Source: Symbiodinium natans (taxonomy: Eukaryota; Sar; Dinophyceae; Suessiales; Symbiodiniaceae). Taken from it: DNA of 64,000 bases. A model generated the notes under the pieces. It was not told where the DNA came from and did no database searches. It worked only from the letters and a program-made list of their open reading frames with translations. The position numbers and the translations under genes are program-made. Where the stretch lies: assembly GCA_905221605.1 (NCBI GenBank), contig CAJNDS010000446.1:379743-443742 (forward strand), read 5' to 3'. This document shows positions 7,051 through 10,000 of the stretch, piece after piece. Position 1 is the stretch's first letter. Each line of letters starts with the position of its first letter.

Positions 7051-10000
7051 ATGAAGCGTGCGCTTTCTCCCGGTGACACCTCGGACGGGATCCTGAGCGT
7101 GTGGAAAGCTTCAGGGGAGAAGCTCACCGCCATCCTCGTACCTTAGGGATACTTGGAAATTGATTTTTTTTTCTATTTTTAGGGTTTAGGGTTTAGGGTT
7201 TAGGGTTTACCGAAGAAACAGCTAGAACATCTTTGGTAGGTTTCCAAGTTCAGAATAGGTACAGGATCTTGGGGACGTCAAGATGTTGAAGCGAGACTTG
7301 GGCAGGCTTTGTGGCCTGTCACGATTTAGACAAAGGCTCCTTTGCGACGGCCAAGCCTTACCGGATGACGCAGAACCTAGCTCCTAGGTAAGCCCTTGGG
7401 CCATTTTGTATTTTCCCTTATTGGGTTGAAGAGGATCATATTCCTAAACCCTAAACCCTAAACCCTAAACCCTAAACCCTAAACCCTAAACCCTAAACCC
7501 TAAACCCTAAACCGGTTTCGAGGGCCATCCTAGGCTCATGTTCGGACGTTCAGCTCGTGCTGCTGCAACTCTGCGCCCCGGACCCTACCGAGACCTACCG
7601 CCTGATCACCTACGCTGCAGCGGGTGCAACATCCGAAGTTGAGGAGGGGGGGGGGGGGTCCCTAAACCCTAAATCCTAAACCCGAAACCCTAAACCCTAA
7701 ACCCTAAACCCTAAACCTAAACCCTGAACCCTTTTTTGGGGGTCCCTTTAAAGGGGGATTCTATTCTACTTGGGGTACAACAGGGGTACCCCCCCCATTT
7801 TGGGAAATTCCCAGGAGATGCTACAGAGGCCCATGGACCCTAACGGGAGCACCAATGGCCGGAGTGCTCTTCTCGCAGCCTGTCACTTCGTAGCTTACTG
7901 AGTGCACTTTACACTTTTTGGGATACTAGAATCCCCTATAGAACTGAAAGTGCACACTTCTTGGGGGTCTTATGAACTCTAAACCCTAAACCCTAAACCC
8001 CAAAACATGAACTCAGCAACGAAGGTCAGGGAGGGTATCCGGACATTGTGGAGATGCTTCTCGAAGCTGCAGCGGACCCGAACCTTAGTAGCTGAATGGG
8101 TGCACGTTACGCACTTTTTTTGGGATACAGCAATTTCCCTATGGAACTGAAAGTGTACACTTTTAGGGTTTAGGGTTTAGGGTTTAGCGTTTAGGGTTTA
8201 GGGTTTAGGGTTTAGGAATTCAGCAACTAAGGAACGTTGCTGGCCACTTGGGCATCACCCCCCTCATCTCGGCAGCGGGCCAGGGCCATCGGGAAATCGC
8301 TCGCGCTTTGCTGGAGGCCAGGGAGCCCTAAACCCTAAAGCCTAAGCCCTAAACCCTAAAATCCCAAACCCCTAAACCCTAAACCCCTAACCCCTAAACC
8401 CTGAGCCCTAAACCCCTAAACTCTAAACCCCTAAACCCCTAAACTCTAGACCCTAAACCCTAAACCGGAGGCCAGGGCAAACAAGGACGCCGCAGCCTTC
8501 GATGGTGGCACGGCTCTTCTCAGGTCCTCTGCCAACGAGCATTCGGAGGTCGCGCGCCTGCTTGTAGAGGCCAGGGAACCCTAAACCCTAAACCCTAAAC
8601 CCTAAACCCTAAACCCTAAACCCTAAACCCTAAACCCTAAACCCTAAACCCTAAACCCTAAACCGGAGGCCAGTGCGGACAAGAACATGGCAGCCCAGCA
8701 ACGCACGCAGTGTTTTTTTTTTTTGACTCTTCCTGGGTTCGGGGTTGTAGCCAACGATCAACAATGGACACCCCTATATCCCCCTGGGGAAATATTTTTT
8801 ATTTTTGTTTATATAAAACCCAAGAGGATATTTAAAGTACGATGTTTGTTGAGGTTCTAAGGGGAGTATAGACCCTGAATCCGAAACCCCAAGCCCTTAA
8901 CTGCATGGATCATTCTCTAAGTTAGGGTTTGTTTTCGGGGGCTCCTGTTTATATGGTGCCGCAATATGTATATATGTATATATATATATAGGGACCTAAA
9001 CAGGGAACCTAATGTAGAGAAGTACGCATATTATGATATGGTTGTTGGGTTACCCAGGCGGATGTGGAGGGCAAGACAGCTTTGATTGAAGCTTCCCGAA
9101 GGGGCCACTTGGGCATTGCGCAGTTGCTGACCGATTCCATGGCAGACCTGAACCTGGCAGATCGGATCCTTGCTTGAAGTAGGGTTTAGGGTTTAGGGTT
9201 TAGGGTTTAGGGTTTAGGGTTTAGGGTGAGTGTAGGTGTTTTCCTAAGGGCCTATGCTGAGCTACATTGACTGCCATTTTAAGAGCCAGGCGTTGAACGA
9301 TCAACTTGTTGTGCTTCCTTCTTTTGGAGTCTCTTTACTATGTAAACTGTAAACCCAAAACCCTAAAGCCCTAAAGCCTAAACACCAGTGAACTGATGCA
9401 CCCCAGACCTGCCAAAGCACGATGACTTGCAGGTTCAGCTGTAAGTAAATTATGGCAACTGTATTTCTAAATCCTATTTCGGCCACTTCTAACCTTATGA
9501 CGTCCAGCTGTGCACCGGGCAGACATATCTGAAAATGCAGTTATGCAGGAATAAGGTAGGTCAAAAATGCAGATCTCGACCTTCTCCATCGCAACAATGA
9601 GGGAAAAATGCAGACCCATTTCTCCTCCATTTTTTGGTTTCTGTATATAAAAGGCTGCATGACGGCTCCTACTTTTGTGTACGATATACACACATTTCAT
9701 ACATGCTCGGGAAAATCCCCGTCTATTTGTTCGAGAGTCCCCGACACCGGAATTTATGGACGAGTCGCCTGCTGCCATAAATAGCTGCAGCCCCCGAAAT
9801 ATGCAACCCCCTTCCCCGTCCGCCTGTTGCTACTTAGGGGTGGGGGGCGGGGGCCATGCAACCCCACGAGCATCTATCCTGGCCCCGGCATCCCAACCCT
9901 CATTTTACCTTCATTCCTGCGGTGAGGCCCAGGCCAGCCTCCATTTTTCCGGCATTCCTGAAAAACGGCTACCTCCATTTTTCCTCCATTTTTCCTCCAT

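Follow-up and report, generated by a model that had tools for sequence, protein, structure and literature searches.

Introns of telomeric repeat with duplicated edge words in an ankyrin gene of Symbiodinium natans

The origin of new introns is a long-standing question, for which transposon-like introners and break repair are the leading answers. The parts of what we describe here are known separately, as telomeric insertion with target duplication in the horse, intron gain with direct repeats in Daphnia, and the introners of dinoflagellates (reports given by accession are represented by excerpts unless the full text is named). Introners are present in Symbiodinium microadriaticum and other dinoflagellates (PMC9860276; Roy et al. 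2023, via PMC11453091); those of Symbiodinium carry 4-bp duplications and inverted repeats, with the 5' splice site provided by the duplicate (PMC9860276), and terminal inverted repeats are absent from some published introner families. GC- and GA-type donors and introner-like introns are known in dinoflagellates, whose telomere repeat is TTTAGGG (PMC11453091). In Daphnia, newly gained introns with direct repeats have been ascribed to staggered breaks (PMC4202315). Telomeric insertions in the horse sometimes come with a target duplication, with duplication alone at 3 of 66 loci, and the excerpt reports no human short interstitial telomeric sequence within an exon (PMC7215372). Among the matches listed by a literature search that lay outside most subscription papers, none describes an intron made almost wholly of telomeric repeat.

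Two consecutive telomeric introns in an ankyrin gene

We analyzed a window of 64,000 nt (C446:379743-443742) of the S. natans assembly (759,417,921 bases in 2543 contigs). Near its left end lies an ankyrin gene, gene 1, which we mapped from the residues SDGILSVW; an in-frame ATG is present upstream at 7051, and the true start may differ from the mapped beginning. Splice sites were solved by requiring GT/GC/GA-AG boundaries and an open joined frame, with preference for the solution that best matched uninterrupted paralogues or ankyrin repeat guides. All eight introns of gene 1 are solvable in this way, and joining the exons leaves the frame open all the way from SDGILSVW to the stop. The spliced protein matches Ank_2 at 2.2e-34 (118.3 bits), against 33.1 bits for the best unspliced frame. 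Every intron of the gene has some telomeric sequence (32, 71, 64, 22, 54, 111, 88, and 16 nt in I1 to I8), and in two of them it makes up nearly the whole body:

7081..9177, + strand: ankyrin gene 1, nine exons and eight introns, mapped from SDGILSVW to the stop TGA
8317..8470, + strand: intron I6, GC-AG, 154 nt, phase 0, 111 nt of exact telomeric heptamer, degenerate
8570..8668, + strand: intron I7, GC-AG, 99 nt, phase 0, 88 nt of exact telomeric heptamer, pure
8313..8323, + strand: left copy of GGAGGCCAGGG at I6, donor side
8467..8477, + strand: right copy of GGAGGCCAGGG at I6, acceptor side
8567..8574, + strand: left copy of GAGGCCAG at I7
8666..8673, + strand: right copy of GAGGCCAG at I7

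The first-pass annotation of this DNA had described two consecutive ankyrin introns as consisting almost wholly of CCCTAAA units with duplicated words at both edges, and the mapped introns bear this out. The junctions (splice sites marked by a slash) read CTGGAG/GCCAGGGAG-(CCCTAAA)n-ACCGGAG/GCCAGGGCA at I6 and GTAGAG/GCCAGGGAA-(CCCTAAA)n-ACCGGAG/GCCAGTGCG at I7, so that direct repeats of 11 bp (4+7 nt) and 8 bp (3+5 nt), with downstream parts of 7 and 5 nt, span the respective junctions; the annotation's end points, 8313 and 8673, take in the duplicated words. Its further claim that removing the array and one copy restores an unbroken phase-0 ankyrin frame is likewise upheld: joining gives GHLGITPL..ALLEARANKD..RLLVEASADKNM, an open phase-0 frame, retention of either array brings stops into it, and paralogues of the same genome encode it uninterrupted. 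An earlier 204-aa joined protein, whose joints differ slightly at some introns, gave 156 reported genome matches; each of the best 25 of these covers at least 172 of the 204 positions in a single stop-free frame, and the top identity among the listed matches is 45% (C234:42777-43373). The uninterrupted paralogues are about 45% identical to gene 1, and alignment to three of them (L009, L013, and L010) is gap-free at both I6 and I7. Because scoring, which reached 150 of 2261 candidates, was biased to uninterrupted copies, these matches show that empty sites exist and do not give the frequency of intron-bearing copies. A recent paralogue in which arrays separate the same exons was considered and rejected: matches on C1727 and C280 were taken as array matches, with exon 7 DNA alone matching the genome only once. 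Whereas gene 1 has eight introns, ankyrin genes whose frames are uninterrupted form a very large family in the genome.

Repeated pure CCCTAAA contains no GT, GC, GA, or AG, while repeated TTTAGGG contains GT and AG in each unit; in a C-strand array, the splice sites therefore have to come from the flank. As had been proposed, a GC donor and an AG acceptor can both be read from the duplicate at each of the two introns. I7 has GC at position 1 only and AG at intron positions 4 and 98 only, and the degenerate I6 has seven AGs, the final one, at 153, closing the intron. The two thus combine the splice dinucleotides and restored frame of a spliceosomal intron, and both place the organism's telomeric repeat within unique DNA, as interstitial telomeric sequences do. 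Their non-array nucleotides number 13 in I6 and 11 in I7 (7-9 nt on the donor side, 4 nt on the acceptor side). The terminal inverted repeats of introners are missing (3/14 in I6, 2/14 in I7), as is a fixed short target duplication.

The two introns are close to each other in their ends and not in their surroundings: the first 21 nt agree at 20 of 21 positions and the last 20 nt at 20 of 20, whereas the exon flanks agree at 32 of the preceding 60 nt and 20 of the following 30 nt. Moreover, I7 ends CCGGAG as I6 does, unlike the TAGAG of its own left flank. Near-identical intron ends within divergent exon flanks make it unlikely that I6 and I7 are unrelated events. The annotation's picture of two telomeric introns stands as far as both lie between coding exons in phase 0, and the insertion at breaks healed with telomere repeats that it proposed is a putative mechanism. 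On these sequence comparisons, one intron copied to the neighboring ankyrin repeat would fit better than two unrelated events; alternatively, a second insertion at the homologous word may have produced the pair. With I6 degenerate and I7 pure, either of them may have come first.

Neighboring introns and the comparison set

The remaining introns of gene 1, together with those of a second ankyrin gene in the window, show a different architecture:

7138..7258, + strand: intron I1, GT-AG, 4-bp repeat GTAC, weak inverted termini (7/14), 32 telomeric nt
7380..7533, + strand: intron I2, GC-AG, 4-bp repeat GCTC, inverted termini 10/14, 71 telomeric nt
7644..7814, + strand: intron I3, GA-AG, junction repeat 2+3, no inverted termini (4/14), 64 telomeric nt
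7882..8024, + strand: intron I4, GT-AG, 4-bp repeat GTCA, inverted termini 11/14, 22 telomeric nt
8080..8231, + strand: intron I5, GA-AG, 4-bp repeat GAAC, inverted termini 13/14, 54 telomeric nt, array in G orientation
8690..9057, + strand: intron I8, GC-AG, only 16 telomeric nt; a donor 3 nt later scores nearly equally
11022..11226, + strand: intron G2a of ankyrin gene 2, GA-AG, 82 telomeric nt
11293..11748, + strand: intron G2b of ankyrin gene 2, 4-bp repeat GAGG, inverted termini 11/14, 90 telomeric nt inside
11851..12228, + strand: intron G2c of ankyrin gene 2, GC-AG, CCCCAAAA array at its start, 142 telomeric nt, junction repeat 4+3

In I1, I2, I4, and I5, the 4-nt start of the intron equals the start of the next exon, as in a 4-nt target duplication, and inverted termini are present in I2, I4, I5, and G2b (10, 11, 13, and 11 of 14, respectively; in G2b, CTTGGTCGCCC and GGGCTACCAAG, with both splice sites equally placeable 3 nt later). 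By these features I2, I4, and I5, and perhaps I1, resemble the published Symbiodinium introners, with the array lying inside. The equation of telomeric array with intron, taken as a general rule, fails on these introner-type introns. An intron of another ankyrin gene, L012C, has termini beginning CTTGG that pair at 11/14, a downstream repeat of 3 nt, and no telomeric base; set beside the array-bearing I2, I4, I5, and G2b, it indicates that introner-like introns exist with and without an array. At two further ankyrin loci (L008 and L012), five of six mapped introns, several with near-equal solutions, contain telomeric repeat; these six lie outside the set used for counting below.

To place the junction repeats in context, we assembled 27 introns, from gene 1, gene 2, 13 HSP70 introns, and three introns of a ClpB-like gene (69% identical to E. 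coli ClpB over 32 residues) on C2009. Introns B1-B3 of HSP70-B were dropped because the solver drew on exons belonging to more than one tandem copy, and HSP70 intron A5 (repeat 3), first solved across copies, was manually assigned copy-1 coordinates. I6 and I7 have the longest junction repeats of the 27. Those of the HSP70 introns measure 2-6 nt (mean 3.8) and those of the other 12 measure 1-7 nt (3-5 nt in the other six of gene 1; 4, 5, and 7 nt in gene 2; 1, 4, and 1 nt in ClpB), and when intron starts are crossed with the exons of other introns, a match of at least 5 nt occurs in 1.0% of cases, with a maximum of 7. Inverted termini of at least 8/14 occur in four of the 27 introns, against 1.2 expected, crossed intron pairs reaching this level in 4.4%; I4 and I5 are alike and hence not independent in this count. 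None of the 13 HSP70 introns contains telomeric repeat, and nine of them have GC donors. All three ClpB introns do contain it (92, 64, and 260 nt); one of them, K2, shares its first 19 nt with I7, has no long duplicate, and is followed by an exon starting GTCAAG. A search for the TCP-1 family gave six matches.

Telomeric arrays across the genome and their flanks

Telomeric repeat is abundant well beyond the ankyrin genes. The window contains 184 arrays of at least 28 bp, with listed lengths of 28-177 bp, 87 in C and 97 in G orientation, and 12,929 of its 64,000 bases are exact telomeric heptamer, against about 303 in shuffled sequence. In 20 further 10-kb pieces (L014-L033), which we placed on ten large contigs including that of the window, the heptamer averages 19.5% of 190,000 readable bases, with nearly equal orientations (18,421 versus 18,642 bases); 18 of the pieces range from 10.6 to 28.7%, and the remaining two (L014 and L027) have 0.4 and 1.8%. 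The arrays are therefore widespread in the assembly. At the same time, three HSP70 loci (L055, L056, and L057, two of them fetched with tandem copies) hold only 7 telomeric bases in 18,343, which, together with the two sparse pieces, indicates that arrays avoid some regions. About one-fifth of the sampled nuclear DNA consists of dispersed short telomeric arrays, which is unusual for a nuclear genome and noteworthy independent of the intron question; no account of a comparable nuclear genome was found among the literature matches listed.

We note in addition that viral contigs contain five stretches with the telomeric array, and that two large repeat-protein genes of the window (29963-32221 and 56781-59604; long open frames of the FNQSLENV..PGSLQSLSFG type) have no array of at least 28 bp inside them. 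A Pfam scan of plus-strand frames outside both ankyrin genes and outside 9178-10799, 30301-33499, and 56301-64000 returned no family at E 0.05.

Flank duplication was assessed over 609 usable arrays out of 619 from the window and the 20 pieces. Of these 609, 17 are directly flanked on both sides by an exact repeat of at least 8 bp, against 2.4 expected when flanks are re-paired randomly; both I6 and I7 are among the 17, about five of which are telomere-like words. For repeats of at least 12 bp, the count is seven, against 0.0 by re-pairing. Random places, partly through tandem repeats, show the two lengths at 41 and 17 of 3000 positions (8.3 and 3.45 per 609); the excess of repeats of at least 8 bp over this local background is about twofold, and about half of them could be background. 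A first flank test found a shared word of at least 8 in 27 of 183 arrays, against 7.0 by re-pairing, and a looser test (masked local alignment, score at least 24) found no excess in 6 of 183 arrays over 39 of 900 random places, with 0.0 by re-pairing; the abutting test alone keeps its excess over both controls. Clear duplication is thus present at no more than about 3% of arrays, with lengths of 8-19 bp, other abutting examples being found in L030 (17 bp), L019 (13 bp), and L031 (11 bp). Such variable lengths speak for breaks rather than for one transposase. Across the 609 arrays, no shared motif at array edges was found.

Arrays as the cargo of elements with inverted termini can be rejected as a rule, the combination of 4-bp repeat and termini occurring at 22 of 594 arrays, against 20.1 expected and 31 in a mirrored control; we keep this reading for the single cases I5, G2b, and L019 5357-5523. 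The last is a repeat with long inverted termini (GTACTTATTAACCAATTA.. and ..TAATTGGTTAATAAGTAC) and a telomeric array in the middle of the element, and flanks resembling it, judged by eye only, are perhaps present at window 54920-54985 and at L025:2148-2201. Elsewhere in the window, the arrays at 42207-42267 and 50651-50687 have a common right flank word, CATTCCCTACTA, and a 15-bp word, CCTCATTCCCTACTA, stands on either side of the latter.

The junction GGCCAGGGAA/CCCTAA occurs at 12 genome sites, including window 8569-8584, under a search pattern that demanded a non-T final base and so may let some sites escape. Read-through of a telomerase-RNA template was rejected as the source of this junction, since at all 12 sites the 33 bases shown continue as telomeric or telomere-like repeat, with no template-like locus.

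Origin of the intron pair and comparison with known systems

The most economical account of I6 and I7, judging from their sequence, would be an insertion of telomeric DNA in which the duplicated word serves as both donor and acceptor. We give about an even chance to the specific version in which insertion at a staggered break made one of the two introns, the other being copied or made at a homologous site. Here a staggered double-strand break would have opened an ankyrin exon at GGAGGCCAGGG and been repaired with (CCCTAAA)n, either made by telomerase or captured, while filling of the overhangs would have duplicated the break word. The duplicate would then give the GC donor GAG/GCCAGG and the acceptor GGAG/G, and exact excision as a spliceosomal intron would restore the protein. 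The second intron would have arisen through gene conversion or unequal exchange between neighboring ankyrin repeats, or through a new insertion at the homologous word. We infer the staggered break, telomerase, gain as the direction of change, and splicing in the cell. In favor of the account are junction repeats of 11 and 8 nt where HSP70 introns have 2-6 and other introns 1-7 nt, and the lack of inverted termini where I2, I4, I5, and G2b reach 10-13 of 14. The few non-array nucleotides of I6 and I7 likewise seem too little for an earlier intron. Against insertion weigh the flank repeats, whose frequency is just about double that of random places, the 12 sites of GGCCAGGGAA/CCCTAA, and the 13 array-free HSP70 introns. 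In addition, K2 starts as I7 does, and A3 starts GCCAGGGAA without telomeric repeat, so that donor consensus or an element end in common may account for part of the "duplicate".

The main rival, which we consider rather unlikely, holds that I6 and I7 are former introner-type introns in which an array arose or expanded, displacing the body and its inverted termini. Since arrays lie inside the introner-type introns of gene 1, they may be secondary in I6 and I7 too; I2, I4, I5, and G2b are introner-like with arrays inside, L012C has similar termini (11/14) and no array, and a placement of G2b and G2c at the matching LLE/A and LLQ/A position of the ankyrin repeat is feasible. However, I6 and I7 retain no inverted termini, their junction repeats exceed 4 nt, and what is not array comes to just 7-9 nt on the donor side and 4 nt on the acceptor side. 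It is more improbable that I6, I7, and ClpB K2 (GCCA/GTCA) were made by a mobile introner whose body is telomeric and whose duplication is 4 bp long (GCCA). The start GCCAGGGAACCCTAAACCC is common to I7 and K2 and agrees at 20 of 21 positions in I6, and the pattern GGCCAGNGANCCCTAAACCC has 18 sites in the genome and none when written backwards; but reversal of the pattern destroys its telomeric part as well, the sites are unlike at their right ends outside the window, and the frequency of arrays framed by a 4-bp repeat and inverted termini is that expected, as given above.

It is very hard to see the edge words as mere splice-site consensus plus ankyrin codons (AG/GCC) with no duplication. AG/G is indeed frequent here at both junctions, GC donors occur in nine of 13 HSP70 introns, and A3 starts GCCAGGGA; nevertheless, HSP70 introns reach at most 6 nt (n = 13) against 11 in I6 and 8 in I7, and the crossed starts and exons, matching at 5 nt or more in 1.0%, stop at 7. 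We give equally little credence to gene 1 being a pseudogene broken by arrays that stay unspliced, to which the single genome match of exon 7 DNA might point, against the eight GT/GC/GA-AG solutions that together restore one open frame and the 118.3-bit ankyrin score of the spliced product.

Whether insertion extends beyond this pair is a separate matter, and we regard as doubtful, somewhat more so than the overgrowth of a former introner, the broader view that in this genome telomeric repeat provides a constant supply of new introns. On that view, arrays at staggered exon breaks would become introns whenever the break word has AG/G, and telomere-repair chemistry would feed intron gain across many genes. 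If the insertion account is true, the body of an intron would be a simple sequence of known maker, telomerase, and intron gain would be tied testably to break repair; the very many arrays of this genome suit such testing.

Among the described systems, the dinoflagellate introners resemble I6 and I7 in inserting with target duplication, taking the 5' splice site from the duplicate, and restoring the protein, and it is with I2, I4, I5, and G2b that they share the 4-bp duplication and inverted termini; as far as the excerpts describe them, they differ from I6 and I7, which lack inverted termini, have longer duplications, and carry a telomeric body rather than a family consensus. The non-canonical introners of Amoebophrya are likewise dinoflagellate introns with direct repeats at their boundaries, but, unlike I6 and I7, they combine direct repeats of 3-5 nt with inverted repeats of 8-20 nt, and the excerpt gives no telomeric description of them (PMC7789003). 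The new introns of Daphnia share with I6 and I7 direct repeats (4-12 bp in Daphnia) common to the adjacent exon, whereas telomeric inserts go unmentioned there ("telomer" occurs 0 times in the text of PMC4202315). Mammalian short interstitial telomeric sequences, which enter at double-strand breaks, match I6 and I7, as excerpted, in being telomeric repeat inserted in unique DNA, sometimes with a duplicated target. In our judgment, the array density here is far above theirs, and, unlike the mammalian cases, I6 and I7 separate coding exons and would be spliced out as introns.
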